DNA of 64,000 nucleotides from Marisediminitalea oceani (lineage in GTDB: Bacteria; Pseudomonadota; Gammaproteobacteria; Enterobacterales; Alteromonadaceae), in the NCBI RefSeq assembly GCF_003731635.1, contig NZ_RCUA01000020.1, positions 62,001 to 126,000 of the forward strand. The letters are read 5' to 3'. Positions 1,849-24,041 of this stretch are shown here, in pieces (position 1 is the first letter of the stretch; the number at the start of each line of letters is the position of its first letter). Under the pieces are notes generated by a model. The model was not told where the DNA came from and did not search any database. It saw only the letters and a program-made list of their open reading frames with translations. The position numbers were made by a program, and so were the translations under genes.

Positions 1849-2634
1849 CTAGCTATGGTACACCCTGGGGGCGCTGTGGTGGGGTAAGTGGATTAAGTTA
1901 AGCTGATACCGTTTAGCCCACTCCACAGCCATAGTCGTAGGGGCAGATAAGGTAACCAGGGTTGGCAGACCAACACGAATAGCCTTTTGCACCAACTCCA
2001 GCCCGCAACGACTGGTCAGCACCATAAAACCATTCGTTAAGGGGGTGTCGGATAAAGCCAGCGCACCTATCAGTTTGTCCATGGCATTGTGGCGGCCAAT
2101 ATCTTCACGGCACAATGTGATGCGACCCTCGTTAGTCACAAAAAATGCGGCATGCTGGGCGCCACCTGAATGCAGAGCCTGTTGATATTCACGGATACGA
2201 TGACGAAGGTTGGTAAAGGCACACACTTCAGGCAAGGGCGCATCCGGTAATTTGGAAAGTTCAGGTAACGCTGATTTCAGCGCATCTGTACCGCAGATAC
2301 CGCAGCCCGAACTGCCAGCCAGGCGGCGTTGATAAGACTTCAGTTGCCACTGGGCACGAGGACTAAGCTGCACATCAGCAACCCCCTGCTCGCCGTCAAA
2401 GGTCACATTGATGCTACGAAACTGGCCCGGCGAATCAATAACGCCCTGAGTCAGGCTAAATCCAACCACAAAATCCTTCACGTCATCGGGGCTAACCATC
2501 ATCACCGCATAACTAATGTCGTTATAGCTAATAGCCAGGGCACACTCGGTTGGCAGCGCACTCTCTTCTTCCAGTTGCTGTGCACTGACGGTCTGGTAGC
2601 GATACACTTCAGCGGTCTTTGCTCGGTCTGCCAT
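1849..2634 (-). CDS. fdhD: formate dehydrogenase accessory sulfurtransferase FdhD
   Basis: A 261-residue protein of the FdhD family, which passes sulfur from the cysteine desulfurase to the Mo-bisMGD cofactor of formate dehydrogenase-like enzymes. The CGICG motif, with cysteines at residues 111 and 114, is the family's sulfur-transfer signature; the LCREDIGRHNAMDKLIG and TSRCGLELVQKA blocks are also characteristic. Length matches the family. It lies tail to tail with the YdeP-type oxidoreductase, its probable client. The upstream side faces the CsrB-like RNA, whose terminator ends about 130 bases before this start codon on the same strand, so fdhD should have its own promoter in that gap. Confidence 0.95.
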   Translation of the reverse strand: MADRAKTAEVYRYQTVSAQQLEEESALPTECALAISYNDISYAVMMVSPDDVKDFVVGFSLTQGVIDSPGQFRSINVTFDGEQGVADVQLSPRAQWQLKSYQRRLAGSSGCGICGTDALKSALPELSKLPDAPLPEVCAFTNLRHRIREYQQALHSGGAQHAAFFVTNEGRITLCREDIGRHNAMDKLIGALALSDTPLTNGFMVLTSRCGLELVQKAIRVGLPTLVTLSAPTTMAVEWAKRYQLNLIHLPHHSAPRVYHS

Positions 2635-2762: not shown

Positions 2763-2791
2763 AAAAAAACGATGACCGAAGTCATCGTTTT
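2763..2791 (-). terminator. intrinsic terminator of the CsrB-like RNA
   Basis: A 10-bp perfect stem (AAAACGATGA with TCATCGTTTT) closes a six-base loop containing CTTCGG on the minus strand and runs directly into a T tract (seven As on the plus strand at 2763-2769). It defines the 3' end of the GGA-rich RNA. Confidence 0.9.
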
Positions 2792-3125
2792 CTCTGAATT
2801 TTGAGTTTCCTTCTCAGCGATCCCTTGCGACTAAAATCTTCCCGATTAAAATCCGTATACGCCCCTTTCCTTCTTTTCTCACATCATCCTGCGTGAGCTG
2901 TTCTCCCTGAACAGGTCCCTTTCCATTATTCCTGTATAAGCTGTACATCCTGCTACAGCATTCTCCATCCCGGAGTTGTCCTTTTCGGCCTTCCCGACCG
3001 GTCCTTTATCCTTAAACAGAGTTCCTTACCCTGTCTTACTCATCCTGAGCAATCCCAAGTTCATCCGTGTGTCTTCCTGACTCGTCGTGTTTCCTTGTGA
3101 CACGTTCATAGTACGCTTATGACTG
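2763..3125 (-). ncRNA. csrB: candidate CsrB-family regulatory RNA
   Basis: This roughly 350-nucleotide stretch has no credible protein gene, but its minus strand carries about 23 or 24 GGA triplets, many as AGGA, AAGGA or CAGGATG, spaced along its whole length. It ends in a perfect intrinsic terminator. That is the architecture of CsrB/RsmZ RNAs, which sequester the CsrA/RsmA translational repressor through repeated GGA loops. A near-perfect GacA/UvrY-type box lies about 150-180 bases upstream, where BarA/UvrY-type systems activate these RNAs. The 5' end is uncertain (about 3100-3130): TTGACG at 3158-3163 could be a -35 element, or TACTAT near 3107-3112 a -10. The RNA call is inferred from composition and layout; no search against an RNA covariance model was possible. 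Confidence 0.82.
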
Positions 3126-3270
3126 AGGAACGCTAATCCACTCTGGGATATTTTCTCGTCAAAGTTGCCGATTAAGACTGACAAAAATAAATTTAATTAT
3201 TATTTTTCAATACCTTAAAAATTAAGCGACGTTTTTAGCACAGACAAGAATCTACAATATCTCACAGCTT

Positions 3271-3288
3271 TGTAAGATATTTCGTACA
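3271..3288. promoter_or_regulatory. GacA/UvrY-type activator box upstream of the CsrB-like RNA
   Basis: TGTAAGATATTTCGTACA matches the palindromic GacA consensus TGTAAG-N6-CTTACA at 11 of 12 defined positions. It sits about 150-180 bases upstream of the likely start of the GGA-rich RNA, a spacing usual for csrB/rsmZ genes. A weaker second half-match (TGTGAGATATTGTA on the minus strand, near 3252-3265) lies next to it. Function is inferred. Confidence 0.7.
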
Positions 3289-3496
3289 CAGATAGAGGGG
3301 AATTGTCTTATCCTTTTGGCTAAGTTCCAGGCATCGATCAACTGAGTGCACAGAGAAACAGTTGTAGAGCTTTACAATGAGGGAATAAAAGATTGCTTAT
3401 TCTGGCTCCAATTCGTTATAAGTATAGCCAAGTGTTGCGTTAGCGCCAGAACAGGTCACTATTACCAACAAGCATTTGTGAAAACGGACTTTATTA

Positions 3497-4235: not shown

Positions 4236-4817
4236 ATGACACGTACACAAAAAATAACCAGCGGCCTTCTACTTACACTTGCTACCACAGCACCGGCCTT
4301 TGCACATACTGGTCACGAAACGGTTCAGAATGCATTTTTGGCTGGTTTGTCACACCCTATGATGGGAATTGATCACCTTATTGCCATGGTAGCGATGGGC
4401 TACTGGGCGTCAGGTTTTGCAGGTAAACAATGCAAAGCCATGCTTGCCGCATTTTTTGCATTATTGATTGGTGGTTTCTCATTAGGCTTAGCAGGTTTCA
4501 GCTTTTCGTTTATGGAAACGGGCATCGTCCTGACATCTGTAATCACCGGCTTACTTATTGCCACACGTAAGAACGTAACTCAGGGCCTGGCGGTTAGCCT
4601 GGCTGCTTGTTTTGCAATGTTTCACGGTTTTGCCCATGGTCTCGAGACCGCCGGCTCCGTCCCTTATCTGTTTGCTTCAGGTTTCCTCGTTACCAGCGCC
4701 ACACTGGTAGCGGCGGGCTTTGCTGTGTCGAAACTGGTCTCGCGCAGCATCCCTTCTGCAAACAGAGTCATTGGGCTGGTAATTGCAATGATGGGAGTAT
4801 CGTTGTTTTCAATTTAG
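4236..4817 (+). CDS. hupE: HupE/UreJ-family nickel permease
   Basis: A 193-residue inner-membrane protein of the HupE/UreJ family, believed to bring Ni2+ into the cell for hydrogenase or urease. Residues 1-23 look like a signal peptide ending FAHT; the family motif HPMMGIDHLIAM follows near residues 40-51, and a second histidine motif FHGFAHGLE sits near 130. About six hydrophobic helices are visible. The histidine-rich motifs are the expected metal route. In rhizobia hupE is inside the hup operon; here it is a separate plus-strand gene next to the island, with its own sigma-54 promoter and intrinsic terminator. It probably supplies nickel for the HypA/HypB insertion step. Confidence 0.93.
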   Translation: MTRTQKITSGLLLTLATTAPAFAHTGHETVQNAFLAGLSHPMMGIDHLIAMVAMGYWASGFAGKQCKAMLAAFFALLIGGFSLGLAGFSFSFMETGIVLTSVITGLLIATRKNVTQGLAVSLAACFAMFHGFAHGLETAGSVPYLFASGFLVTSATLVAAGFAVSKLVSRSIPSANRVIGLVIAMMGVSLFSI

Positions 4818-4850
4818 GTGACCCACACCAACTATTGAATGCCATGGGCG

Positions 4851-4880
4851 GGAGCCGATCTTAGGGTCGGCTCCTTTTTT
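4851..4880 (+). terminator. intrinsic terminator after hupE
   Basis: GGAGCCGATC (4851-4860) pairs with GGTCGGCTCC (4865-4874) around a TTAG loop with one mismatch, followed by six Ts. It begins 33 bases after the hupE stop. Confidence 0.9.
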
Positions 4881-5022
4881 GCGTTATTAAAACCGATGGC
4901 TTCATTTGATGCAGCACTAACACACTAAAAGTCAGCACAACCTTCATTATCCCAATAGCACCTTCCCGGATTATTGCTGTAAGCTATTATGATTAATTAA
5001 TATGTAAGGCGTTCAGGGATGA

Positions 5023-5472
5023 GTGAGTCAGCCTTTTTCTATGAGCCTTTTCAAACCGTCTTTCGGTACTGATATGAAAACAGAAAAAGAAATTCTCGCT
5101 GAGTTTACAGCCCTTGTTTTTGAAAAGGGACAACCATCAGCCATGGATATTTTTGCTAAACAGAACCTGTTAAAAGGATCTTTATCTTCTGTAAGGCTGG
5201 CAGCTAACGACGCATTAGAACTGTCTGCTTTAATGCGCCAGGATCAACAGAACAAGTTGAATCTTAAAATGAAGGAGAGCGGTCTACCTTCTCTCACCAC
5301 GATGCATAATAAGGCATTCAGAGACTTTCTTAAGATCGCCAATCGGGGAATCATCAAAAAAGAACAAGAGTACCGGCTGGTGCGCTCTGTATCAGAAACA
5401 ACCATTTTAAGTTTGGAACAACAGTCCGTTGCTTATAAATTGTTGGAGAGCTACGAACAAACACACAGCTAA
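5023..5472 (+). CDS. conserved-looking protein of unknown function
   Basis: A 149-residue soluble, mostly helical, charged protein without a recognisable family. The start is uncertain: a GTG at 5023 is preceded by AGGGAT at a good distance, whereas the in-frame ATGs at 5041 and 5074 lack a ribosome site. The central part (KMKESGLPSLTTMHNKAFRDFLK) has no motif I can name. It converges on hypE, ending 18 bases from the hypE stop, and no clear terminator lies between them. It is not a known hydrogenase accessory factor; its place beside the island may be coincidental. Confidence 0.55.
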   Translation: MSQPFSMSLFKPSFGTDMKTEKEILAEFTALVFEKGQPSAMDIFAKQNLLKGSLSSVRLAANDALELSALMRQDQQNKLNLKMKESGLPSLTTMHNKAFRDFLKIANRGIIKKEQEYRLVRSVSETTILSLEQQSVAYKLLESYEQTHS

Positions 5473-5490
5473 CAAAAAATTATGTCAGCG

Positions 5491-6537
5491 CTAGCAAATC
5501 CGCGGCAGTTGCTCGCCCACCAGCATATCCAGGATGCGCTCTCCGCCAAAGTGAGTTTTCACCAGCACCCGGTTATAGTTCGATTCAATGACTTCACCAA
5601 TAATGGCTGAATCTTTCCCGGCCGGATGATTGCGCATCGCCGCAAGCACCGCCTCAGCTTTATCGGCCGGAACCGCTGCAACAAGTTTACCTTCATTTGC
5701 AAAGTACAGTGCATCGAGCCCCAGGATCTCGCAGACACCGCGCACGGTATCTCTTACCGGGATCTGTTCTTCCTGCAAACGAATACTGACGGCGGATGAC
5801 TCAGCGAATTCACATAAAACCGTAGCGACACCGCCCCGGGAGGCATCACGAATGGCGTGAACGTCCGGACACACTTTCAACATGGTTTGGACTAACTCAT
5901 TTAACGCCTGGCAGTCGGTTTCCAGCGTCACATCGAGCGCCAGATCACCACGGGCATTTAGTATTGCCGCGCCATGATCGCCTATCAGGCCATTCACAAT
6001 AATTTTGTCGCCTACCCGGCAGTTAGCCGCTGAAATATCAACGCCTTCAGGGATCACCCCAATGCCACTGGTATTGATAAAAATTTTATCGCCTTTGCCT
6101 TTAGGTACCACTTTGGTGTCGCCGGTGACGATAGTCACTCCGGCCTTATCAGCGGCGGCTTTCATTGAGGCAACCACGCGTCGCAGTAGCTCAACATCGA
6201 GCCCTTCCTCTAAAATCATACCGCAGGACAAATACTTTGGGATCGCGCCAGACACAGCAATATCATTTACCGTACCATTTACCGCCAGCGAGCCAATGTC
6301 GCCGCCTGGAAATTCTACGGGGTCGACCACGTAAGAATCGGTGGTAAACGCCAGTTGTGCGCCACTTTGCATTAGTTCAGCCAGTTCAAAACGAGCTTGA
6401 TCTTCCAGTTGCTCAAGGTCGGGGTTAGCGAAGGTCCCCACAAAAACATCTTCAATCAGATCGCGCATGGCTTTGCCGCCTGCGCCATGAGCCATGGTGA
6501 TGGTTTTGGCCCGCAGGGTCCGTTTAGGTTTATTCAT
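5491..6537 (-). CDS. hypE: hydrogenase maturation protein HypE
   Basis: HypE dehydrates a carbamoyl group on its own C-terminal cysteine to a thiocyanate, giving the CN- ligands of the [NiFe] site; it works with HypF and hands the ligand to HypC-HypD. The 348-residue protein ends in PRIC, the required terminal cysteine. The N-terminal MAHGAGGKAMRDLIEDVF and the VTGDTKVVPKGKGD and DASRGGVATVLCEFA blocks mark the PurM/AIR-synthase ATP-binding fold. The open frame extends 47 codons further upstream into hypD, but the ATG at 6537 begins the conserved part and leaves a 17-base gap after the hypD stop. It is the last gene of the hup-hyp run. Confidence 0.96.
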   Translation of the reverse strand: MNKPKRTLRAKTITMAHGAGGKAMRDLIEDVFVGTFANPDLEQLEDQARFELAELMQSGAQLAFTTDSYVVDPVEFPGGDIGSLAVNGTVNDIAVSGAIPKYLSCGMILEEGLDVELLRRVVASMKAAADKAGVTIVTGDTKVVPKGKGDKIFINTSGIGVIPEGVDISAANCRVGDKIIVNGLIGDHGAAILNARGDLALDVTLETDCQALNELVQTMLKVCPDVHAIRDASRGGVATVLCEFAESSAVSIRLQEEQIPVRDTVRGVCEILGLDALYFANEGKLVAAVPADKAEAVLAAMRNHPAGKDSAIIGEVIESNYNRVLVKTHFGGERILDMLVGEQLPRIC

Positions 6538-6554
6538 ACTGCTTACTCGGTTAG

Positions 6555-7682
6555 TTAAACGGCTTGTTTTACGTCGATTTTGCCGTAGCTGTAATAGGCT
6601 GAACAGGCGCCCTCGGTCGATACCATTAACGCGCCGATGGGCGTTTCGGGGTTGCACTGCTCGCCAAACAGTTTGCACTCCCAGGGTTTGAGCACGCCCT
6701 TAAGTACTTCGCCACACTGGCAGGCTTTAGGGTCGGCCACATGAGCTGGCTCTACGGCAAATAAGCGTTCAGCATCAAATCGTGCGTATTTTTCACGAAT
6801 ACGCACGCCGGAATGGTCAATAGAGCCCAGGCCCCGCCACTCAAAGAATTCGCGAAGCTCAAACACCTCACCAACAGCTTTCAGGGCGTTATTGTTACCC
6901 TGCTCTGGCACAATTCGTTTGTACTGATTTTCCACCAGCGCCTTGCCATCGCGGATTTGCTCTACCACCATCAGCATGGACTGCAGAATATCCAACGGCT
7001 CAAAACCGGCTATCACCAGCGGGCGTTTGTAATGACTGGCAATAAAATCATAAGGCGCTTTACCAATTACCATCGATACATGACCGGGCCCTAAAAAGCC
7101 ATCTATAACCATATCCGGAGAGTCCAGAATCGCCTTGATGGTAGGAATGATGGTGATGTGGTTGCAGAACAGCGAGAAGTTCGTAATGCCTTCTCTATCT
7201 GCCTGCAGTAGCGTTAACGCCGTGCTCGGCATGGTGGTTTCAAAACCCAGTCCGAAAAACACCACGTTTTTATGCGGATTTCTTCGGGCAATATCCAGTG
7301 CATCCATAGGGGAATAAACCATACGTACATCACAGCCATCAGAATTGGCCTGCTGCAGGCTTTTCTTCGAGCCTGGCACACGCATGGCATCACCAAAGGT
7401 CGTAAATATCACATCAGGCTGTTCAGCAATGGCAACGCAATCGTCTACTCTTCCCATCGGCAATACACAAACCGGGCAGCCAGGACCGTGCACCATTTCA
7501 ATCTTATCGGGTAATAACTCTTCCAGTCCGTAGCGAAAGATTGAGTGCGTATGACCTCCGCATACTTCCATTATTTGTAACGGGCGTTGGGCGGTCGTGG
7601 GGATTTCCTCTACCACGGCATGGATGCGCTCAAGCACGCGTCTGGCCATTTGGGGATCGCGAAACTCATCTACAAACTTCAT
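6555..7682 (-). CDS. hypD: hydrogenase maturation protein HypD
   Basis: HypD is the [4Fe-4S] protein that, with HypC, holds the iron while the CN and CO ligands are attached. The 375-residue length is normal. The motifs MEVCGGHTH, HGPGCPVCVLP, GLGFETT and GFLGPGHVSMVIG are all present, and the C-terminal cysteines CQCGEVLKG, WECKLFGEQC bind the cluster. The start codon overlaps the stop of the upstream SIS gene by one base (TAATG), implying translational coupling. Confidence 0.97.
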   Translation of the reverse strand: MKFVDEFRDPQMARRVLERIHAVVEEIPTTAQRPLQIMEVCGGHTHSIFRYGLEELLPDKIEMVHGPGCPVCVLPMGRVDDCVAIAEQPDVIFTTFGDAMRVPGSKKSLQQANSDGCDVRMVYSPMDALDIARRNPHKNVVFFGLGFETTMPSTALTLLQADREGITNFSLFCNHITIIPTIKAILDSPDMVIDGFLGPGHVSMVIGKAPYDFIASHYKRPLVIAGFEPLDILQSMLMVVEQIRDGKALVENQYKRIVPEQGNNNALKAVGEVFELREFFEWRGLGSIDHSGVRIREKYARFDAERLFAVEPAHVADPKACQCGEVLKGVLKPWECKLFGEQCNPETPIGALMVSTEGACSAYYSYGKIDVKQAV

Positions 7683-8386
7683 TATTTCTTCTCCTGAGAC
7701 AACCGGCTGTCAGCCAGCAGGCTGTGCACCAGATCCCATAAAATGTGATAACAGGCCAGGTGACACTCCTGAATGCGGTGAATACTGTCGCTGGGTACGG
7801 TAATACAAACATCGGTGAGCTGTTGTCGTTGCAGCTCACCACCGGTTCGGCCAGTAAAGGCAATCACGCTTAAATCCATGGCCCGGGCTTTTTTACAGGC
7901 TTCAATTAAGTTGGCTGAGTTGCCACTGGTGGAGAACACCACCAGCGTATCACCATAATTGGCCAGCGCGGATAACTGCCGGGTGATGACATGTTCGGTG
8001 CCCACATCATTACTCACTGCCGTCATCATCGCGGTATCCTGAGATAAGTTGATAGCTGGCAGCGCCTTGCGACCGGTAGTAACCGGGTGCATAAACTCTA
8101 CAGCCAGATGCGCAGCATCACAGGAAGAACCGCCATTGCCCGCGGTTAACAGTTTTCCCTGTTGTGCGTAAGTGGCTGCAATGCGTTTTGCGGCCGCAAG
8201 CAAGGCTTCACTGTGAAGGTCAAAAAAAGCCTGCTTCACGGCAATACTGTCACGCCCTTTAGCCTGAACAGAGGCTACCAGGGCGCTGGCTAACTCGTCG
8301 TTATCACTAGGTTTAACAGCCGGAGCCTGGCCGGTAAAGGGGTACAATGCCGACAGAACAGACTGGTTATCGGTAGACTCGCTCAT
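7682..8386 (-). CDS. SIS-domain protein, GmhA-like, within the hyp operon
   Basis: A 234-residue protein of the SIS (sugar isomerase) fold, closest in style to sedoheptulose-7-phosphate isomerase GmhA and DiaA. The phosphosugar-binding signature AGNGGSSCDAAHLAVEFMHP lies near residues 80-100, VVFSTSGNSANLIEAC near 145, and the HRIQECHLACYHILWDLV helix near the C-terminus. About 65 residues precede the SIS core, longer than usual for GmhA. It lies between hypC and hypD, 5 bases after hypC and sharing TAATG with hypD, so it is co-translated with maturation genes. A lipopolysaccharide role would be odd here; no established hydrogenase role is known to me. The ATG at 8386, after AGGGAT, is preferred over the adjacent GTG at 8389. 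Confidence 0.85.
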   Translation of the reverse strand: MSESTDNQSVLSALYPFTGQAPAVKPSDNDELASALVASVQAKGRDSIAVKQAFFDLHSEALLAAAKRIAATYAQQGKLLTAGNGGSSCDAAHLAVEFMHPVTTGRKALPAINLSQDTAMMTAVSNDVGTEHVITRQLSALANYGDTLVVFSTSGNSANLIEACKKARAMDLSVIAFTGRTGGELQRQQLTDVCITVPSDSIHRIQECHLACYHILWDLVHSLLADSRLSQEKK

Positions 8387-8391
8387 CACGA

Positions 8392-8673
8392 TTATCCCTG
8401 CGCACCCTGCTGCATGGCGTCGAGTTCTTCCTGTAACTCACCAATCTCAGCCAGAATTTCCAGCGTTCGCCGGGCCTCTTCCTCATCGATAATGCTCATG
8501 GCAAAGCCCACATGCACCAGCGCCCAGCTACCCACTAAAGATTGCAGGTTACCATCAGTAGGCACCACACAACTCAAATTAGCTTCGCGTTTAACACCGG
8601 AAACCTGAACAATGCCGGTTTGCATGGCCTCATCGCTTATTGCGACAATCTGGCCGGGGATCCCTAAACACAT
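8392..8673 (-). CDS. hypC: hydrogenase maturation chaperone HypC
   Basis: A 93-residue HypC/HybG/HupF-family chaperone. It starts MCLGIPGQIV, placing the essential cysteine at position 2 once the initiator methionine is removed; this cysteine coordinates the iron delivered with HypD and contacts the large-subunit precursor. The conserved GSWALVHVGFAMSIIDEEEA block follows. The open frame continues 18 codons upstream, but only the internal ATG at 8673 gives the invariant N-terminus. A second member, HupF, is encoded at 14700-15008, so the two may divide work between complexes or between normal and oxygen-stressed assembly, as in rhizobia. Confidence 0.95.
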   Translation of the reverse strand: MCLGIPGQIVAISDEAMQTGIVQVSGVKREANLSCVVPTDGNLQSLVGSWALVHVGFAMSIIDEEEARRTLEILAEIGELQEELDAMQQGAQG

Positions 8674-8686
8674 ACTGATATTCCCC

Positions 8687-10162
8687 TTAATGCTGTTTAC
8701 TGGTTTCTGAGTCGCCGGATTTCTCAAGCTCGTAGCGTTCCAACTTGGAGCGCAATCCTACCCGAGACAAACCCAGCTCCAGTGATGCGCTGCTTTTATT
8801 CCAGCGATGGCGGATCAACGTTTCGCGCAGAATGCGTTTTTCCAGCAGCTCGACCTTTTCTTTTAGCGTGCCTTCAAGGCCAGCAAACATATCAATGTCT
8901 TCATCCTCACCGCCAGGCGCCGCTCTCAGGACTCGCGGATTCAGCAGGTCGGCGGTCAGCCATTCGCCTTCACACATTACCAGCATGCGGCGCACCTCAT
9001 TTTGTAATTCACGCACGTTACCCGGCCAGCTGTAGCGTTTCATACAAGCGATGGCTTCTTCACTAAAGCCTTTTACCGGCTTGTCGAACTGATGCATGGC
9101 GGTTTGTAAAAAGCTGTTCGCCAGTACCGGAATATCTATCGTACGGCGAGACAATGCCGGCAGCTCCAGGGTGACTTCGGCTAAACGAAAATAAAGATCT
9201 TGTCGGAACCGGCCAGCGCGCACTTCCTCTTCAAGGTCCCGGTTTGTGGAAGCCACTACCCGCACATTAACTTTGCGGCGTTGTTGCTCGCCCAGGCGGC
9301 GAATTTCTCGCTCCTGCAGCACCCGCAACAACTTAACCTGAAATGCAGGGCTGATCTCACCAATCTCATCCAGAAAAATAGTGCCGCCGTCGGCCTGTTC
9401 GAACAGGCCCACATGGTCGGTGATCGCGCCGGTAAACGAGCCTTTTTTATGGCCAAACAATTCAGATGCCAGCAGTTCATCAGGCATGGCACCGCAGTTT
9501 TCTACCACAAACGGGCGGTCTGAACGCAAGCTGTTGTAATGCAGCGCCCGGGCAAAAAGCTCCTTACCCGCACCGGATGGGCCAGTGATCAGCACCGAGA
9601 CATCATAAGGCGCAATTTTGCTGACCTGGTCACAGACTTTATTCAGCGGGCTTTGCGCATGGCGTTTTATCTCTTCAAGCTGAAAGCTATTGCGCAGATG
9701 GGCTTTTTTCTCACTAACCTGCTGCTCGGCCTGCTCTTCGGTAAGACGCATCTCCATATTCAGCAGTGCATTCTCACTCTGTAAGGCGCACATCCGGCAC
9801 GCACTGCGGATAATCATTAACAGACTTTCCGGGTGCCAGGGTTTGGTGATGTACTGCAAAATACCTGCTTCGTTGAGGCCTTTGATAATGTCTTCTGAAT
9901 CGGTATAGCCAGACAAAATAAGGCGGGCGACCTGAGGCCAGCGATCCCGCACTTCGGTTAGCAATTCCACACCGGTACGATCCGGCATGCGCTGATCGCA
10001 CAGGATCACCTGCACGTCATGGCTTTCCAGTAATTCCAGCGCCAGGTCGGCGCTATTGGCAGTTAATACGTCAAACTCTTCATCCAGAGTTCGCTCAAGA
10101 GTTTCAAGCGAACGGACTTCATCATCAACGCATAACACAATAGGACGTTGAGATGTGGTCAT
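8687..10162 (-). CDS. hupR: NtrC-family response regulator HupR/HoxA
   Basis: The H2-responsive transcription activator of the hup system, 491 residues. Order: receiver domain with phosphoacceptor Asp56 and Lys107, AAA+ domain with Walker A GPSGAGK (194-200), sigma-54 contact loop GSFTGA (241-246, serine replacing the usual alanine of GAFTGA), Walker [12 protein letters not shown], and a Fis-type helix-turn-helix near residues 455-485. In Ralstonia HoxA and Rhodobacter HupR, the unphosphorylated form activates hydrogenase transcription and the kinase turns it off when H2 is absent. The kinase gene hupT is 15 kb away at the start of the island. Sigma-54 promoters at hupE and hupS fit this protein. 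Start overlaps the hypB stop (TAATG). Confidence 0.95.
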
Positions 10163-11088
10163 TATAAGATTGCCTTAAACTGCTCTACCTGTTGTTGCAA
10201 AAGATGAATACGCGATTCAATGATGGCTGCCCGCTTGGTGTTGATCCAATCAAGCCACTCCTGCATGCCTTCGCCGCTTTTGGCTGACAGCTGAATAATA
10301 CGGATTTCCGGATTGACCCGTTTAGCGTACTCAATGCATTTCTCGACATCAAAATCCAGGTACGGCAGCAGGTCAGTTTTATTCAGGATCATTAATTCTG
10401 ACGCATGAAACATATCCGGATACTTGAGCGGTTTATCTTCGCCTTCGGTGACCGAGAGAATCGACACTTTTGCCGCCTCGCCCAAATCAAACGAAGCCGG
10501 GCACACCAGGTTACCGACATTCTCGATAAACAGCACGCCACCGGTCATCCCGGAAAAGTTCTCCATGGCATGACCGACCATGTGCGCGTCGAGGTGACAA
10601 CCTTTGCCGGTATTGATCTGAATAGCCTGAACGCCGGTTTCGCGGATGCGGTCTGCGTCATTGGCCGTTTGTTGATCGCCTTCAATTACGCCTACAGTGT
10701 AACGGTCTTTAATGTGATTAATGGTTTCAGTCAGTAAGGTGGTTTTGCCTGATCCCGGGCTTGATACCAGGTTGAGCACAAACAACGACTGCTGTTCAAA
10801 GCGTACCCGGTTTTGCGCGGCATACTGGTTATTTTTACCCAGAATATCCTGCTCAATTTGCACCATTCGGCTTTGGCTGAGGCCTGCCACATGGGCATGA
10901 GCCGGACCTTTGCCGAAATGAATATTATCGCCATCACTTTCAATGCCGCTGTGATCATGCTGGTCTTCATGACTGTGAGCGTGTGAATGGTCGTGACTAT
11001 GAGTGTGATCATGGCTATGCCCGTGGGCGTGCCCCTCATGCCCTTCTATCTTAACTTCACCTTCTGAACAACCGCAAACCGTACACAT
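10162..11088 (-). CDS. hypB: hydrogenase nickel-incorporation GTPase HypB
   Basis: A 308-residue SIMIBI GTPase that drives Ni2+ transfer to the large subunit with HypA. The N-terminus MCTVCGC is the high-affinity nickel site seen in E. coli HypB. Residues 17-46 carry 14 histidines, mostly alternating with D, S, A or T, and three more follow at 57, 64 and 66: a nickel-storage region like that of rhizobial HypB. The P-loop VSSPGSGKT covers 108-116; [22 protein letters not shown] and [12 protein letters not shown] mark the remaining GTPase and metal-site motifs. It starts 2 bases after hypA and is coupled to hupR. Confidence 0.97.
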
Positions 11089-11090
11089 GT

Positions 11091-11432
11091 TTATGCCACC
11101 TCTAGTTCTTTTATTCTCATTTCTTCACCCTGCGTTATCTGTAAGTGATAACTGCCACAAACAGGGCAACTGTCATAGCGTTGCGTGACCGGGACGGTAT
11201 CCAGACACTGCAAACAGAAGGCTTTTCCCGGCATTTTTATAATGTGCAGGCTGGCGCCTTCGGCCAGACTTCCTCTTATTACAGCATCGAAACAAAACGT
11301 TAATGCGTCGGCTTCGATGGTGGCGAGCGGGCCAATTTCGACCCACACCGCTTTGACTTTTTCAAACGACTGGCTCACTGCCTGTTCTTCTAATACCTGC
11401 AGGATCCCTTCGGCAATAGACATCTCATGCAT
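11091..11432 (-). CDS. hypA: hydrogenase nickel metallochaperone HypA
   Basis: A 113-residue nickel chaperone that delivers Ni2+ to the hydrogenase large subunit together with HypB. It starts [10 protein letters not shown]; His2 and the N-terminal amine form the nickel site. The structural zinc site is formed by two CxxC pairs, CLQC and CPVC. Length and motifs are normal. The start overlaps the end of hupK by 8 bases. Confidence 0.96.
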
Positions 11433-12573
11433 GGACTAACTCCAACTGCCACGACACACAAGGGTCGAGAAGCTTTATCAGGGTTTCCGCCACCGGTGTT
11501 ACCTGCTCCCAGGGTAAATATAACCCTTCCAGCATGGTTTTGAGACTCCCCTGGGGATGAAAATTCCACTCAGTGGGAGCAATAATCTGGTACTTAGCCA
11601 CGTGATTTCGATTATCCAGCGCCACTTTATGTAGCAGCGTTCCTCTGGCCGTCTCGACTACCGAGCAGCCGCGCACGCCGGTGCCCTCTGTCTGGCTAAA
11701 CTGTTGCTGACGGATAATTGATCTGAACCTCATTGGCGCTGTAGTTATTTCACGGTAAAGCGAGCGCAGGCGACTTTCAATTAAAAATCCTCTGGCTTCA
11801 ATGTTTTGCCGTGCCCAACTGCCGGTTTCGGCCGGCACTCCGCTAATGGTAGGCTGGTGACAAAACTGCTCCGCCTCAGCAGCATTCAGGGCTGCCAATG
11901 TTGCCATCAGCTGTTGTGACTCACTTAAGTTTAACGTTTTTGCGGCCAGTCCTAACGGGTATTCACCGCAGGCTTTCAACAACTGACATACCCCGGCAGA
12001 CACCCCCATCGTTGCTAACGAGGCGCCTTCCCGCTTGGCGGGCAATAGCGGTTTAACAACTTCTTCCAGTTGCCGGGCCAATTGCTCAAGCGCAGGCCGA
12101 CACCACGCCTCTCCGGTTGTTGCCGAGGACAGGGTTAAACTCCAGTCAAGTTGCTTACGGCACTGATTAAACCAGTCCACCACATGGCTCATTCTGGATT
12201 TATGTTGTGGCGCCCAGTTGGTCACCCAGCTAAACACCTGCTCCCGCAAAGACTCAGCAAATAACAATGTATCCCGCGCTTGCTTTATGACCGACGTTTC
12301 GGTAATGCCCGCGGCGCTCTCTACGGCCCTTAGCGCGGCGATTAACTGCCCCATCCCGCAAATATAAAAGAGTGATGGCATCATCGCCAACACCCGATCA
12401 ACCGGCTTTTCCCTGAACAGGCGGGTAACGGCAAACGGGCGGGTATTGTTGATCTCAACGGCTTTGATGTGGTCACGGTTATAACAAACGGTAACCTTTA
12501 TGCCACCGGTAAGCGGATTCGCCGCTGTGTTATGTGCTTTACTTCCGGCCGCCAGTTCCGCAGCAATATTCAT
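11425..12573 (-). CDS. hupK: hydrogenase assembly protein HupK
   Basis: A 382-residue protein matching HupK (HoxV), which is distantly related to the large subunit and thought to act as a scaffold when the Fe(CN)2CO unit is built. The C-terminal part reads like a large subunit without its metal ligands: ETARGTLLHKVALDNRNHVAKYQIIAPTEWNFHP corresponds to the AARGALGHW...YQIIAPTSWNFSP block of HupV, and it ends [15 protein letters not shown], where the second cysteine of the DPCxxC motif is lost. It shares ATGA with hupJ and overlaps hypA by 8 bases. Identification rests on this relationship and its place after hupJ. Confidence 0.88.
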   Translation of the reverse strand: MNIAAELAAGSKAHNTAANPLTGGIKVTVCYNRDHIKAVEINNTRPFAVTRLFREKPVDRVLAMMPSLFYICGMGQLIAALRAVESAAGITETSVIKQARDTLLFAESLREQVFSWVTNWAPQHKSRMSHVVDWFNQCRKQLDWSLTLSSATTGEAWCRPALEQLARQLEEVVKPLLPAKREGASLATMGVSAGVCQLLKACGEYPLGLAAKTLNLSESQQLMATLAALNAAEAEQFCHQPTISGVPAETGSWARQNIEARGFLIESRLRSLYREITTAPMRFRSIIRQQQFSQTEGTGVRGCSVVETARGTLLHKVALDNRNHVAKYQIIAPTEWNFHPQGSLKTMLEGLYLPWEQVTPVAETLIKLLDPCVSWQLELVHA

Positions 12574-13142
12574 GGTCTGCTGTCCTCTCGCCGCGCAAAG
12601 CTGCCTGTCAGGAAGGCCCGGCGACTCACTTCTGGTGCCTCTTCATCGACCACTTGCTGTTCACTTTCTGCATCACAAGCCTGGGCCTCAAGCTCTACAG
12701 CCTGACGCATTTCGCTGTGAACCGTGTAGCTTTGATGACGTTCTGAAGGCGTAACGTTTTCGGCATCAAACAACGCTGCCAGTACTTCCTGCGCGGTTTC
12801 CATAGCTATGTTCTGTGATGAAAACTCAAACATCGGTGAAAACACCGAGCAAGTGGCAAAATCGCCACATTCCCCGGCATAAGCACGAATAAACTCGTAT
12901 TGGCCGGAGGGTAACTTCTGACGAAATTTAGCGCCAACCTGCTGAGCGTTATAATGAGACGTCTCGCCCGGGAGCAACACAATATTCATACACCAGGGCG
13001 TAACGATGATGCCCAGCCAATTGTCTTCCCATGACAAAAATTTCGTCGCATCCACTGCGAGCTTATTATTGTACACCGGCAGGCCTGCCATTTTGCGGGC
13101 GACCGATTCATAGAAAGCAACAACTGCTGTACCGTTTGACAC
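12570..13142 (-). CDS. hupJ: hydrogenase assembly chaperone HupJ
   Basis: A 190-residue protein matching the [NiFe]-hydrogenase assembly chaperone HybE/HupJ family, which in rhizobia helps maturation of the small subunit with HupG, HupH and HupI. Landmarks are the core around residues 37-60 (WEDNWLGIIVTPWCMNIVLLPG), a middle ECGDFATCSVFSPMFEF block, and a C-terminal SRRAFLTGS motif that resembles a twin-arginine signal placed at the wrong end; the same motif is seen in other HupJ proteins. An acidic linker separates the core from it. It begins 2 bases after hupI and overlaps hupK by 4 bases. Confidence 0.9.
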   Translation of the reverse strand: MSNGTAVVAFYESVARKMAGLPVYNNKLAVDATKFLSWEDNWLGIIVTPWCMNIVLLPGETSHYNAQQVGAKFRQKLPSGQYEFIRAYAGECGDFATCSVFSPMFEFSSQNIAMETAQEVLAALFDAENVTPSERHQSYTVHSEMRQAVELEAQACDAESEQQVVDEEAPEVSRRAFLTGSFARREDSRP

Positions 13143-13144
13143 TG

Positions 13145-13366
13145 TTAGTCCTCTATCACCATAAACTGATCGCGGTCACCATCGCATTCCGGACACCGCC
13201 AGTGGTCAGGCAGGTCGACAAACGCCGTGCCTGGTGGGATCTGCCAGACCTCATCACCTTCCGCCGGGTCGTAAACATACCAGCATATTTTGCATTCCAG
13301 TCTGGCCTGCTTATCAATCCGGCTGGCATCACCTAAATAACTGCCCTCAAAGCCCTGAAAACTCAT
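13145..13366 (-). CDS. hupI: rubredoxin HupI
   Basis: A 73-residue rubredoxin with the two iron-binding pairs CKICWYVYDP and CPECDGDRDQF, plus the conserved GTAFVDLPDHWRCPEC turn. HupI-type rubredoxins are extended at the N-terminus relative to classical ones, as here by about 20 residues. In rhizobia HupI is needed for small-subunit maturation under oxygen, probably as an electron donor. It sits between hupH (9-base gap) and hupJ (2-base gap). Confidence 0.95.
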   Translation of the reverse strand: MSFQGFEGSYLGDASRIDKQARLECKICWYVYDPAEGDEVWQIPPGTAFVDLPDHWRCPECDGDRDQFMVIED

Positions 13367-13375
13367 TCTGCCTTC

Positions 13376-14239
13376 CTATACCAACGCATCGCGAATTTCA
13401 GACAGTCGGACCGCTGAATCGGCCAGATCCTCAGGGGCTGCGCAAGCCACGGCAGGAATGGCCACAATTTCCAGGGTGTCCAGGATAAGTTGGTCGGTAC
13501 TGTTGTAATACTGCACGCGCCATAAGCCTTCCACCTGAGTCGAAGTGATCCGGCAGTTACCGTATCCGCGGGACAAAATGGTGACACTGCCGGTACCGGT
13601 GGTTTCGGTCAGGCTGTAGTGGTCTTCAGGCGAAAAAGGTAACAAGGACAGGTTTATTACATGCGAAGCCATCCCCGGGTCGCGCTGGTAGTCTGCAGAG
13701 GTATCCGCAATTTCTACCAGTACCGAAGGCGCATTCAACAGCCCTTCCGGCAGGCTGGCGATTCGGGCGGGTAAATCCACCTTAGTGGCAAATGCCTGGT
13801 CTTTCACACATTCGGGGATCTCTGCCACCTCAATAGCTTCGGCTGTCACGTTGCCCTGCTCGTCAAAGGTCCGCAAACGCCAGATACCGGCCATTACCGT
13901 TTCCTGAATTCTGACCGGCTTATCGCCATCAATCAGAACGCTCACCTCGCCCTCACCAAGGATTTGATTAAGCAGATTTAAATCGGCCTCAGGTAACTCG
14001 GTAAGCGTCATAATGCTGCTCTGACCGTTTTCGTTGATTTGCCCAAGCATAAGCTGGATATCGGCGAGGATACTCATGGCCTGGGGACAACGTTCCAGCT
14101 CACTTTCTTCCGGAAACGATGGCATATCATAAGTGTTCATTTCCGACGGCATCTTCATGTAATCAAGCACCATGTCACCTTCTGACTGACTGCCCGGCCC
14201 GATTGGGACATTAACGATGTTTATACTGTTATCACGCAT
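13376..14239 (-). CDS. hupH: hydrogenase expression/assembly protein HupH (HyaF-like)
   Basis: A 287-residue HupH/HyaF-family protein. Two similar halves are visible: LNQILGEGEVSVLIDGDK...IQETVMAGIWRLRTFDEQGN (about residues 88-130) and TETTGTGSVTILSRGYGNCRITSTQVEGLWRVQYYNSTDQ (about 213-252), the internal repeat typical of this family. It is thought to help protect or process the small subunit before it joins HupL. N-terminal IPIGPGSQ-like sequence (VNVPIGPGSQSEGD) is conserved in the family. Position between hupG and hupI is the standard order. Confidence 0.92.
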   Translation of the reverse strand: MRDNSINIVNVPIGPGSQSEGDMVLDYMKMPSEMNTYDMPSFPEESELERCPQAMSILADIQLMLGQINENGQSSIMTLTELPEADLNLLNQILGEGEVSVLIDGDKPVRIQETVMAGIWRLRTFDEQGNVTAEAIEVAEIPECVKDQAFATKVDLPARIASLPEGLLNAPSVLVEIADTSADYQRDPGMASHVINLSLLPFSPEDHYSLTETTGTGSVTILSRGYGNCRITSTQVEGLWRVQYYNSTDQLILDTLEIVAIPAVACAAPEDLADSAVRLSEIRDALV

Positions 14240-14248
14240 ACTATTCCC

Positions 14249-14680
14249 CTATTGCCCGCAACTTTTGCTAACCGGATTAAACACCACCGGTATACCGATA
14301 CCCGGATCCGGGCGGGGTTCTAAAGTCAGGATTCGATTGATTTCGTGTACATAATCATCCCAGTTCTGCACTTTGGTAATGGCGTCGAGATACTGGCCAT
14401 GCTTAAGAAATACCAGTGCCGGCCACGCCATAAAGTTATAACGGCCTCGACAGGCAGTTTGAATATCTTCAGATACCACCGCCGGGGTAAGCTGAGGAAA
14501 CTGTTTGATCAGTTCTGGCAGGATCACGGCTACGTCCAGGCTTTCCGGAAAGCGTTTGGGATCTTCGGTTAGAAACAACACGCTAAGCGGTGTTTGCTGG
14601 ATAAATGTCTCGAAATTATCATCGTCGAGAAGGGGGTAACCTAACTCGTCGATAAGACGATTGATCAGCGGTGAGTTCAT
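14249..14680 (-). CDS. hupG: hydrogenase chaperone HupG (HyaE-like)
   Basis: A 143-residue HyaE/HupG-family protein with a thioredoxin fold but no CxxC redox pair. Recognisable blocks are NFETFIQQTPLSVLFLTEDPKRFPES, PAVVSEDIQTACRGRYNFMAWPALVFLKHGQYL and DDYVHEINRIL. In E. coli HyaE binds the Tat signal of the hydrogenase small subunit and acts as a chaperone; rhizobial HupG has an oxygen-protective role with HupH. The proline in MAWPALVF is the cis-proline position of thioredoxins. Confidence 0.9.
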   Translation of the reverse strand: MNSPLINRLIDELGYPLLDDDNFETFIQQTPLSVLFLTEDPKRFPESLDVAVILPELIKQFPQLTPAVVSEDIQTACRGRYNFMAWPALVFLKHGQYLDAITKVQNWDDYVHEINRILTLEPRPDPGIGIPVVFNPVSKSCGQ

Positions 14681-14699
14681 AGTGTTCTCTTATCTTGTG

Positions 14700-15008
14700 T
14701 TATTTTAAAAGCGGTTTTAAATGGTCTGGCAATTGTGGCTCGCGTTCGACCAGATCCTTAAAGCAATCGTCGAGGTCGACACTTTGGCCGGACATCACCC
14801 GTTCAATTGCGCTGACGGCCTCTTCCACCTGTTGTGCCCGCGCTTCAGTCAGCACTTCCCGGGCAGCGTCTAAAAAGACTAACAACCAGTCACCAGGCAC
14901 TACATCGCCCACCAGCGAGGTATCAATCCAGCGCTGCTCTGCACCGCGCTGACAGTAAGCCTTGTGGCTGTCGGTCTGAATAACCTGAAATGGCACGCCA
15001 ATACACAT
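14700..15008 (-). CDS. hupF: HypC-family chaperone HupF
   Basis: A 102-residue HypC/HupF-family protein starting MCIGVPFQV with the invariant Cys2. It is longer at the C-terminus than HypC, as in rhizobial HupF, which binds and stabilises the large-subunit precursor HupL, mainly under oxygen. The conserved block VVPGDWLLVFLDAAREVL takes the place of the HypC motif GSWALVHVGFAM. It shares TAATG with hupD, so the protease that finishes HupL and the chaperone that holds it are translationally coupled. Confidence 0.93.
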   Translation of the reverse strand: MCIGVPFQVIQTDSHKAYCQRGAEQRWIDTSLVGDVVPGDWLLVFLDAAREVLTEARAQQVEEAVSAIERVMSGQSVDLDDCFKDLVEREPQLPDHLKPLLK

Positions 15009-15637
15009 TACTTAGTACTTTCCCCTGCTGCAGCACTACCGATAACCCGGCTATCACCGGTGCGGCACGCTGCCTGCTCATCCGGACGGCCCTGTTCATA
15101 GTCGCTCAGGTTTAACTGACCCGGAGCCAATGCCTGCGCCGTTCCCGCGTTTCGCTGCGCAGAAATACCAAACTGCGTCAGATAGTCGAGCGCGATGTCG
15201 ATAGCGGGTTGTACCTGCGCCTTTACTTCCTCGCGCAAACTGCCGCCAAAGTCTTCCAGTTCTACCGGCTGACACCCCACCAGCAATAAATCTGCCGGAT
15301 AGTTACCGGTAAACTCGGCCATGGCTAAGACTTCCTGAAAACCGGTCTGATGCAGGCTCATCTGTTTAGCACCCATAAATTTAGGCACTTCGTCGTTATA
15401 GATAGTTTTTAAGGTGCCTGGTGCCAGGCCGTAATCAATAGCGTCGAACACCACCAGCACATCGGCTTCCTGAACGTGCTGTACCAGATAAATGCCCTGG
15501 GTACCGCCATCCATGATCTTTACGTTTTCGCCAAATTGGTAATCCTGGTTCAGCGCCTCAACACAGCGCACGCCAAACCCCTCATCGGCCCATAAAACAT
15601 TGCCAATGCCTAAAATAAGTATTTGCTTTTCATTCAT
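15008..15637 (-). CDS. hupD: hydrogenase large-subunit maturation endopeptidase HupD
   Basis: An M52-family protease that removes the C-terminal tail of HupL after nickel insertion. Nickel-sensing ligands are seen as Glu in GNVLWADEGFGV, Asp in VFDAIDYG and His in MSLHQTGFQEVL. The core is normal but a tail of about 45 residues (from QRNAGTAQA to the end) is longer than in HybD. The start is ambiguous: the ATG at 15637 begins MNEKQILILGIGN, while an in-frame GTG lies at 15649; neither has a strong ribosome site. The roughly 200 bases upstream separate it from the HigA-like gene and must hold the promoter of this second half of the operon, unless read-through from hupC feeds it. Confidence 0.94.
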   Translation of the reverse strand: MNEKQILILGIGNVLWADEGFGVRCVEALNQDYQFGENVKIMDGGTQGIYLVQHVQEADVLVVFDAIDYGLAPGTLKTIYNDEVPKFMGAKQMSLHQTGFQEVLAMAEFTGNYPADLLLVGCQPVELEDFGGSLREEVKAQVQPAIDIALDYLTQFGISAQRNAGTAQALAPGQLNLSDYEQGRPDEQAACRTGDSRVIGSAAAGESTK

Positions 15638-15833
15638 TCGATTTTGCACGGTGGTAAAACTCAGATTCTCTGGCGCTAGCGCTAATTACATTTCATTTAC
15701 ATACATCAAGTTGCATGCCAACTTAGTAAAAAATCAGGAAGCGCCGTATGGCGGGGTGTCACGGGGGGCGTTACAAGTAACCACACTAAAAAGAAGGAAA
15801 TAAATATAACAAAACTATCCATCAAACGGAAAG

Positions 15834-16142
15834 TTACTTACCACCCCCTTTAGCGAATCGGCGGCTGGCATCGTACAGCTCCCAAAGCTGTTGTTTTTCC
15901 AGCCAAAACATGGGCGTTGTCTGAAAGTGTTGGGCCAGCCTGATAGCCGTATCAGCAGAGATTGCGCGTTGGCCTTTGATAATTTCGTGTACACGTCGGC
16001 GGGATATGTTCAACAGTCGGGCCAGCTCAGACTGGCTGATATTCAGCGGTTTAAGATAACAACGCTCGAGGAATATACCGGGATGTTCAGGCTTGCGACT
16101 ACTCAGGCAATGGCTGCTAACATTGAGGTTGAAGGCTGTCAT
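15834..16142 (-). CDS. orphan HigA-type XRE antitoxin
   Basis: A protein of about 102 residues of the HigA/VapI antitoxin family. RKPEHPGIFLERCYLKPLNISQSELARLLNISRRRVHEIIKGQRAISADTAIRLAQHFQTTPMFWL contains the HTH_3 helix-turn-helix and the HigA C-terminal PxFWL motif. No higB-like toxin frame is found in the 65 bases between it and hupC or downstream. The open frame can start at a TTG (16166), but the ATG at 16142 gives the usual length. It splits the hup operon between hupC and hupD. It may be a solitary regulator, the remnant of a toxin-antitoxin pair, or a cargo gene; autorepression of its own promoter could affect hupD expression. Confidence 0.82.
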   Translation of the reverse strand: MTAFNLNVSSHCLSSRKPEHPGIFLERCYLKPLNISQSELARLLNISRRRVHEIIKGQRAISADTAIRLAQHFQTTPMFWLEKQQLWELYDASRRFAKGGGK

Positions 16143-16174
16143 CCGGTTGCTCAGAAAAGTAATCAAAATAGGTT

Positions 16175-16219
16175 AAAGAAAAAAGGGACGCAGGCGGGGT
16201 CAACAATTGCCTGCATCCC
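16175..16219 (-). terminator. intrinsic terminator after hupC
   Basis: GGGACGCAGGC (16185-16195) pairs with GCCTGCATCCC (16209-16219), with one mismatch and a 13-base loop; on the minus strand it leads into a T-rich tract (16175-16184). It should end the hupSLC transcript before the HigA-like gene. Confidence 0.85.
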
Positions 16220-16230
16220 TCTGAGGAGCC

Positions 16231-16989
16231 TTAATCCGGCTTATCGTCCTTAAACATCCGCCAGCCGCTGATCATGGTGGAGATCAGGCTTTGGCGTGAC
16301 ATGATGTCTTCACGAATTGCCACATAGACATGGATCATAATAAAGGTGATCAGATACCACATGCCCAGGCGATGCCAGGTATGTACATCCTGACTCTGGC
16401 CAAACAGCGGGATCACCCAGCCAAATAACGTATCCTGCCAGCTGCCCTGCCCGGCACCTTCACTGTAAAGCGCAAAGCCGGTGAAGATCATAAAGATCAT
16501 GCCGAGGATAAAGAAAAAGAACATGCCCAGTTGCGCCAGCGGATTATGACCGATGTACTTCTTGGGCGTCTTTTCCATAAACAGATACCAGCGCACCTCG
16601 TGCCATACCTCTTTCCACCAGGCTTTGACGAAAAACTTCGGAAAGAACAGTTCACGGGAATGATGGTTACCCACCAGCGCCCAGTACAACCGGCCGATAA
16701 AGCCCACGGTTACCACGTAAGCCGCGGCAAAGTGGGCAAAACGAATGTAACCCATCAGGAAATTATCGCTGGCTTCACCCGGCAAGGTGGGTAAAGGCTG
16801 GCCGATAAAATACCCCGTCACGCACAGCGTGATGATGGAAAACACCGTTATCCAGTGCCATAAGCGCACTGGCGCCTCGTAAACATAGACCGCTGTTTGA
16901 CGGCGGGTGATAACCTTCTCGTCACCACTGTGATGGTTATCCGTAAGCTGACTTCTCTCAACAGCTTTGCTTTTCACTGACGTAGACAT
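16231..16989 (-). CDS. hupC: Ni/Fe-hydrogenase b-type cytochrome subunit HupC
   Basis: A 252-residue inner-membrane diheme cytochrome b that anchors HupSL and passes electrons from H2 to the quinone pool. Four or five membrane helices carry the heme histidines: VRLWHWITVFSIITLCVTGYF, IRFAHFAAAYVV, FFFFILGMIFMIFTGFALYS, and TWHRLGMWYLITFIMIHVYVAIRED. The family signature RLWHW and HRLGMWYL are intact. An N-terminal extension of about 30 hydrophilic residues precedes the first helix. It follows hupL by 35 bases and is the last gene before a terminator. Confidence 0.96.
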   Translation of the reverse strand: MSTSVKSKAVERSQLTDNHHSGDEKVITRRQTAVYVYEAPVRLWHWITVFSIITLCVTGYFIGQPLPTLPGEASDNFLMGYIRFAHFAAAYVVTVGFIGRLYWALVGNHHSRELFFPKFFVKAWWKEVWHEVRWYLFMEKTPKKYIGHNPLAQLGMFFFFILGMIFMIFTGFALYSEGAGQGSWQDTLFGWVIPLFGQSQDVHTWHRLGMWYLITFIMIHVYVAIREDIMSRQSLISTMISGWRMFKDDKPD

Positions 16990-17024
16990 AATTGAGTCTC
17001 CAGAGAGAGCACCTGGGTGCTCTC

Positions 17025-18833: not shown

Positions 18834-19909
18834 TATTCTTGTTCTCCCTTATGCTGCGCGCGTTTCACCGCACTAACGGCAGCATGGGCAGCAATCGCTG
18901 CACCTACACCGCCAGCAACGGCAGTGCCTACTTCATCAGCGTTCGATTCGATACCGAACTGGTTAATGTCAGTCAGACGGTCATAGAAGGAACCTTTGTC
19001 CCAGAACCCATCTTCTGAACAGCCGATACAACCGTGGCCTGCCTGGATTGGGAAGGACGTGCCTTCGTTCCAGCGAACGGTCGAACAGGCGTTATAAGTG
19101 GTTGGCCCTTTACACCCTACTTTGTACAGGCAATAGCCTTTACGTGCGCCCTCGTCATCCCACTGTTCAACAAACTGGCCTGCATCAAAGTGCGGACGGC
19201 GGTAACATTTATCGTGGATTCGCTGGCTGTAGAACATCTTCGGACGACCCTGACGGTCCAGTTCCGGTACTTTGCCGAAAGTCAGCATATAGGTGATTAC
19301 GCCGGTCATTACCTCTGCAATGGGCGGACAACCCGGTACTTTAATGATGGGTTTATCTTTAATCACTTTATGAATAGGAACCGCCTGAGTGGGGTTTGGA
19401 CGAGCGGCCTGAACGCAGCCCCATGAGGCACATGAGCCCCAGGCAATGATGGCCGCCGCGTCTTTAGCAGCGTGCTTAAGCTGGTCAAGGAATGGCTTAC
19501 CGCCAACAATACAGAACATGCCGTCTTCATTGAGCGGCGGATTACCTTCTACGGCAAGGATGTACTTACCCTTGTACTTCTGCATAGTCTCTTCAAGAAT
19601 CGCTTCGGCCTGATGGCCTGCTGACGCCATTAGCGTATCGTCGTAATCCAGTGAGATCATCGACAGTACAACGTCTTTCACCAAAGGGTGCGCAGAGCGA
19701 ATAAAGGATTCAGAACAACAGGTACATTCCAGTCCGTGCAGCCACAGCACAGGGGTACGTTCCTTGGTTTCCATGGCATTGGCAATACGCGGTGCAAACG
19801 CAGGGCCCAGGCCTAATGCAGCAGCCGTCAGGCTACAATACTTCAGGAAACTGCGACGGGTAATCCCCTGTCGCCGCATGACTTCGTAAAAGGTCTCTAA
19901 TTGGGACAT
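18833..19909 (-). CDS. hupS: oxygen-tolerant uptake [NiFe]-hydrogenase small subunit HupS
   Basis: The FeS subunit, 358 residues from the ATG at 19909, which follows a strong GGAGG site; the open frame runs 60 codons further but that part is not conserved. A Tat signal TRRSFLK (17-23) and cleavage near ANA45 send the folded dimer to the periplasm. The proximal cluster region reads ECTCCSES, with cysteines 62, 64 and 65, and [16 protein letters not shown] supplies the extra cysteine: the six-cysteine arrangement of oxygen-tolerant group 1d enzymes such as E. coli Hya and Ralstonia [13 protein letters not shown] and [10 protein letters not shown] carry further clusters. A Gly/Ala-rich C-terminal helix is the membrane anchor. 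Confidence 0.98.
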
Positions 19910-24009: not shown

Positions 24010-24041
24010 ACTGCTACTCTCTGACCGCACATACTGATGGT

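Follow-up and report, generated by a model that had tools for sequence, protein, structure and literature searches.

A probable csrB gene, one of three copies in the genome, beside hydrogenase genes in Marisediminitalea oceani

We examined a 64,000-nucleotide stretch (the window; positions 62001-126000 of contig C13) of the 4.99-Mb genome of Marisediminitalea oceani (G000), and we are confident that copy c1 on its minus strand is a csrB gene, encoding a UvrY-controlled, CsrA-sequestering RNA, and one of three duplicates. The direct basis for this assignment is the sequence, a covarying structure, a UvrY box and its spacing, synteny, copy number, and a genome that also encodes csrA and uvrY. 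Transcription of c1, its dependence on UvrY and IHF, and its binding and sequestration of CsrA would follow by analogy with known systems. An earlier note, made from the letters of the window, had proposed a CsrB-type RNA with a UvrY site here, and compensatory base changes, the fixed position of the box, synteny with Escherichia coli csrB and the presence of csrA and uvrY strongly support that proposal. The features to which the text refers are as follows, in window coordinates except for the last two.

2763..3101, minus: CsrB-type RNA, copy c1; 339 nt, 23 GGA motifs, putative 5' end
2763..2794, minus: intrinsic terminator with a UUCG loop; 14-bp stem and T run in the minimum-energy fold
2763..2924, minus: conserved 3' domain, the basis of model R1, with hairpins whose stems covary; from alignment, covariation and model
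3108..3113, minus: putative -10 element TACTAT; from conservation
3114..3270, minus: AT-rich spacer from box to promoter, possible IHF region; from AT content and, for IHF, analogy with E. coli
3271..3288, minus: UvrY/GacA box, 11/12 match to TGTAAGN6CTTACA
1849..2634, minus: FdhD, the next gene downstream of the RNA
4236..26358: hydrogenase cargo, apparently inserted and outside the RNA gene; HupE, hyp genes, two [NiFe] hydrogenases, PAS histidine kinase, sigma-54 response regulator
28360..29865: syd (28360-28899, minus) and queF (28999-29865, plus), upstream flank of the ancestral csrB locus
29909..32772, plus: GGDEF gene (29909-31411) and ppnN (31408-32772), same syd-queF flank
C13:45710-46120: copy 2 (c2), from the RNA copy measurement
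C13:48800-49214: copy 3 (c3), from the RNA copy measurement

GGA motifs and covariance-model matches

Read from 3101 to 2763 on the minus strand, c1 carries 23 GGA motifs in 339 nt, which agrees with the two dozen or so over about 350 bases reported in the earlier note. Stretches of the same length on both strands (n = 12,734) hold a mean of 3.6 motifs (sd 2.1), the best of them elsewhere reaching 12, and none of 2000 mononucleotide shuffles of c1 contained at least 23. Dinucleotide shuffles did so in 3 of 2000 cases and already averaged 15.7, so the count is partly due to the G/A-rich composition of the RNA. The motifs are predicted to be exposed, with a mean unpaired probability of 0.79 in c1, 0.76 in c2 and 0.72 in c3, each higher than in all 100 shuffles of the same copy; the c1 shuffles averaged 0.57 and none of the 100 was as high as 0.79.

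The Rfam covariance search that the earlier note had suggested returned a CsrB match, with a score that stays below the curated cut-off. In a permissive search, RF00018 (CsrB) aligned end to end with 3101-2759 at 49.7 bits (E = 2.6e-12) against a gathering cut-off of 71 bits, and Rfam at gathering thresholds gave no match in the whole window. Three RF00018 matches were found in the whole genome (49.7, 46.5 and 42.5 bits), all under 71 and all within 20 kb of one contig. When 60 relatives were searched with stricter filters than this genome, 24 matched and nine exceeded the cut-off, none of the nine in the genus; no genome of the genus passes, though Csr RNAs are described as the most highly expressed genes in an Alteromonas transcriptome (PMC5864184). 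In our view the cut-off characterizes the model and not the RNA family, and because the score falls below it, the case for csrB rests on comparison. A covariance model of the 3' domain built from 27 genus sequences (R1) finds the same three places in the genome and no fourth, scoring c1 at 174.8 bits, c2 at 89.4 and c3 at 53.8. R1 matches under 40 bits, mostly short, were taken as chance, as were two permissive Rfam matches far under their cut-offs, to PhrS (25.3 bits, cut-off 37) and to the Sarbecovirus 5'UTR (19.5 bits, cut-off 150).

A UvrY box at a fixed distance

The box upstream of c1, TGTACGAAATATCTTACA, matches 11 of the 12 defined bases of the consensus UvrY/GacA box, TGTAAGN6CTTACA (PMC3171408). 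It is centred near -178, and its first base lies 187 nt from the putative 5' end, so that of the earlier description the 11/12 match stands and the distance of 150-180 bases needs correction. Such matches are rare by chance: among 3000 random 260-nt stretches of the window, 10/12 was reached in 0.9% and 11/12 in 0.3%, and across the 88 kb examined only three sites reached 11/12, one upstream of each RNA copy. The genome as a whole has 18 sites that miss the box consensus by one base at most, compared with six for a reversed control pattern, and the sole perfect box lies upstream of copy 3. At the other near-perfect boxes with loci (12 of 15), the densest GGA stretch holds nine motifs per 200 nt, compared with 17-19 at the RNA copies.

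The spacing is nearly invariant. The best box anywhere within 260 nt lies 185-189 nt upstream in 40 of the 42 copies measured in the genus. In the copy measurement a start counted only if a box scoring 9/12 or better lay 180-195 nt upstream, and the three regions that failed (G012 and G015, with the box at 175 nt, and G026, with a variant 5' end) were read by eye; a scan free of any box requirement put the box at 186-189 nt in 23/23 copies with a motif-defined 5' end. The shift in G012 (L195) and G015 (L149) brings the box about one helical turn nearer the RNA, as if helical phase were kept.

Conservation also places the probable 5' end of c1 and its -10 element, which reads TACTAT in 20/42 copies and takes other TA...T forms in the remainder. 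The spacers between box and promoter average 72% AT over the 42 copies, compared with 51% in the window. In E. coli, the UvrY site TGTGAGAGATCTCTTACA has its published centre at -183/-182, and full csrB expression requires IHF (PMC4682653). Our scan of E. coli recovered TGTGAGAGATCTCTTACA as an 11/12 box 191 nt upstream of csrB, whose RNA has 22 GGA in 369 nt, figures close to those of c1 (23 in 339 nt, box at 187 nt).

A covarying 3' domain and terminator

Compensatory changes, with both sides of a pair altered, occur in 24 of 39 pairs compared with 12.6 in shuffles, a count that covers the 3' domain of the 27 c1-type copies. In the same sequences 97.6% of cells pair, compared with 87.3% in column shuffles and 41-47% with slid partners, although the consensus structure is favoured over its slid versions because it was derived from the counted alignment. 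The c2-type alignment of seven full RNAs shows both-side changes in 17 of 78 pairs. Folding z-scores are -2.75 for c1, -4.98 and -4.55 for most of c2 and of c3 (slices that begin after about the first 33-35 bases), and -3.79 for a 628-nt relative.

The terminator stem of c1 covaries as helix 8 of this alignment, and the perfect intrinsic terminator claimed from the sequence is present in the fold, with a 14-bp stem, a UUCG loop and a T run. A simple scan of the minus strand for terminators and sigma-70 promoters listed neither at c1; we think that it overlooks the terminator because the T run is drawn into base pairing within the stem.

The Csr circuit

Both partners of such an RNA are encoded in the genome. 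There is a single csrA, above its profile cut-off and beside alaS, which answers the suggestion that the gene be sought, and uvrY lies beside uvrC (318.8 bits, cut-off 280). The best BarA-like hybrid kinase (C86:135843-137741) scores 597.8 bits against a cut-off of 890, and the BarA sensor domain PF09984 has no match in this genome; the input to UvrY may not be the one known from E. coli. In the mechanism we propose, phosphorylated UvrY would bind the box about 187 bp upstream of c1, IHF would, probably and by analogy with E. coli, bend the AT-rich spacer, and together they would switch on the csrB promoter. The untranslated RNA would then expose its two dozen or so GGA sites in hairpin loops and linkers and bind CsrA dimers, drawing CsrA off its mRNAs.

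Length and copy number across the genus

The DNA of c1 matches 35 of 60 genomes, comprising 35 of the 36 in the genus (its own included) and none of 24 outside; the one genus genome without a DNA match, G031, has the RNA beside truC, where synteny located it. The RNA is thus found in 36/36 genus genomes. Over 42 measured copies, length ranges from 332 to 835 nt and GGA count from 20 to 53, and all 42 agree at eight of their first ten bases. Length and GGA count correlate at 0.97 over 41 copies, at 6.9 GGA per 100 nt (sd 0.5). The largest RNA, on the minus strand of L176 (G009), has 835 nt, 53 GGA, one box, one terminator and no internal T run longer than three. A plus-strand GGA cluster in G026 was dropped from consideration, having 14 GGA, no 5' motif and a best box of 8/12.

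The earlier note had taken c1 for the CsrA-sequestering RNA of this organism and had recommended a search for further copies. That search found c2 and c3, so c1 is not the sole sponge RNA. The three copies hold 75 GGA in total, compared with 29-53 in single-copy genomes. In a midpoint-rooted tree of 41 copies, the root of which sets the apparent direction of change, the c1 class and the c2/c3 class of G000, G002, G016, G023 and G034 join (support 92/82), and the c2 class sits on a long branch (0.66). The simplest history would start with a duplication at the ancestral csrB locus in the common ancestor of this Alteromonas clade; G000 and, independently, G002 would then have undergone another duplication, and genes inserted between the copies would account for their present separation. 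Between copies 2 and 3, a sulfatase-like frame (L005:8547-10765; C13:46547-48765) consists of two overlapping ORFs in different frames and is perhaps a broken gene inserted between two csrB copies.

Alternatively, c1 may be a decaying or silent duplicate, leaving c2 and c3 as the working sponges. It does stand next to inserted genes rather than at the ancestral flank, and at 339 nt it is short compared with the 439-835 nt of single-copy relatives. Yet its box, -10 element, terminator and exposed GGA motifs are all intact, and by the R1 scores given above it is nearer to the genus-wide RNA than either c2 or c3. Furthermore, the c1 of G034 is 99% identical to it, and c1-type copies are kept in G002, G016 and, as two contig-end pieces left out of the 42 measured copies, G023. 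We consider a decaying or silent c1 very improbable and favour a working csrB gene.

Relation to published Csr RNAs

Our findings bear on abundant RNAs already described in Alteromonas. Aln1a-c of A. macleodii Te101 are reported as CsrB/C analogues that yield most of the primary reads and as three sRNAs within a 404-bp intergenic region, and the Te101 locus tags place csrA about 128 genes after Aln1 (PMC5864184). AltRN1 of strain AltDE1 is reported as one 424-nt transcript at 1066159-1066582, expressed like ribosomal genes and matching no RNA database (PMC4223743). Aln1 is a CsrA-sponge RNA of the same genus, and its distance to csrA fits the locus described here: RNA and csrA are 148-173 kb apart in five single-contig genomes, and in a sixth, G001, the distance fits (about 163 kb) only if the contig is circular. 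The position of AltRN1 fits as well. As a marker test, we inspected the regions of three complete genomes that should hold RNase P and SRP RNA. In G024, RNase P lies about 183 kb before and SRP RNA about 180 kb after the RNA, compared with 174 and 173 kb in AltDE1; in the stretches covered, G019 showed SRP RNA only, 168 kb from the RNA, and G013 neither. Because the distance to csrA and the order of RNase P, RNA and SRP RNA are alike, the RNA described here is very probably Aln1/AltRN1 of the published transcriptomes, a match of gene positions that lends support rather than proof. Aln1 and AltRN1 as described differ from what we see in relatives, where a single long RNA gene has just one box and a single terminator.

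Multiple Csr RNAs are also known outside the genus. In Shewanella oneidensis, CsrB1 and CsrB2 (420 and 421 bp) are in tandem with a transposase gene between them, and both have UvrY boxes upstream and depend on UvrY (PMC3171408); the insert there is a single gene, whereas here it is tens of kilobases. Pseudoalteromonas fuliginea resembles the present genome in having three Csr sRNAs, Pf1, Pf2 and Pf3, with 25, 21 and 9 GGA, and that report gives no significant match of Pf1 and Pf2 outside Pseudoalteromonas (PMC11882849). Among the matches listed in a search of open-access titles and abstract openings, nothing concerned Alteromonas csrB synteny or length range.

Elastic length and the triplication in one clade are, as far as that search extends, new here. 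We offer tentatively, at somewhat less than even odds, a broader reading in which csrB is elastic in Alteromonas: the 5' leader, 3' domain and box distance would be fixed, while the middle varies at constant site density, so that the RNAs reach 835 nt and 53 GGA and rank with the largest known CsrA sponges. In one clade a lone long sponge would have given way to two or three short, diverged copies, perhaps responsive to different signals, and Aln1a-c would represent a single long CsrB that is processed or has internal starts. The counts compared for size are the 22 GGA of E. coli, the 420-421 bp of Shewanella and the 25 GGA of Pf1. To our knowledge, an RNA of 835 nt with 53 GGA also stands close to the top of the size range of known sponges beyond those counts. 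With ends, box, copies and orthology fixed, Csr control in a common marine copiotroph can be tested directly, and the genus provides a natural series of sponges, from 20 to 53 sites, in which to study the effect of sponge size.

The ancestral locus and the hydrogenase genes

In E. coli K-12 the gene order is yqcA-truC-yqcC-csrB-syd-queF-ppnN. Of 22 Alteromonas loci compared, 18 have DUF3301 and DUF3549 genes downstream of the RNA, together with truC and a yqcA-type flavodoxin gene, and 17 have yqcC; the upstream side has a GNAT gene in 14, a DUF3192 gene in 13, syd in 11 and queF in 11, some of the 22 loci being incomplete or carrying insertions. The RNA, yqcC, truC and yqcA are co-oriented, the same relative orientation as in E. 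coli, and the kind of 5' start, GTC...GGA, is shared with E. coli CsrB (RF00018). The differences are the DUF3301 and DUF3549 genes between RNA and yqcC, the three copies here, the score under the Rfam cut-off and the wide length variation in the genus. By synteny the genus locus is orthologous to E. coli csrB, a relationship that is new here as far as the literature search extends. In this genome the downstream flank (the yqcC-truC-yqcA side) adjoins copy 2; judged by gene order, copy 2 holds the exact ancestral place and c1 is a displaced co-orthologue.

The upstream flank, in turn, lies far from c1. The GNAT gene (26486) is 23.4 kb from copy 1 (3101), compared with 292 bp in G019; in G010, G029 and G027 the distance is 2.5, 3.6 and 4.1 kb. 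The hydrogenase genes thus appear to be cargo of a roughly 23-kb insertion at the csrB locus, between syd and c1, and c1 would adjoin the hydrogenase island because the island was inserted there. On the other side of c1, the FdhD protein is 94-97% identical to six records from Alteromonas or related bacteria (95% to Alteromonas alba), among the 80 listed of 165 confirmed loci, which places the host in the Alteromonas lineage.

Adjacency had been read as a hint that c1 controls nearby genes, and c1 might accordingly act locally on the hydrogenase and formate dehydrogenase genes that adjoin it in this genome; fdhD and an FdhF-type gene adjoin c1 in G034 and G002 too. However, the other loci, 18 of 22, lack these genes beside the RNA, ancestral neighbours remain on both sides of the inserted genes, and known CsrB RNAs act in trans. 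The hydrogenase genes were apparently inserted at the csrB locus and the diguanylate cyclase gene (29909-31411) is part of its ancestral syd-queF flank, so a position near c1 does not count as evidence for regulation. We reject a local link to either and regard local action as very unlikely, preferring a csrB RNA that acts on CsrA. Least likely of all, to the point of being negligible, is a chance or coding G/A-rich stretch devoid of RNA function: dinucleotide shuffles do average 15.7 GGA, but compensatory changes and the shuffle comparison of GGA count lead us to reject a chance purine-rich stretch, the fixed box spacing, terminator and genus-wide conservation speak against it, and the ORF list holds no ORF of at least 60 aa overlapping 2763-3101.

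The island has features of its own. Its two [NiFe] hydrogenases lie within 8687-26358, the second at 22558-25136 and adjoined by the PAS histidine kinase (25030-26358), and the sigma-54 response regulator is at 8687-10162. The second hydrogenase, kinase and regulator together resemble an H2-sensing regulatory hydrogenase set of the HoxBC/HoxJ/HoxA kind. Beyond the island, tblastn shows two DUF3192-type genes, at 27507-27875 and 32903-33232, one of them syntenic and the second a more distant copy near ppnN.
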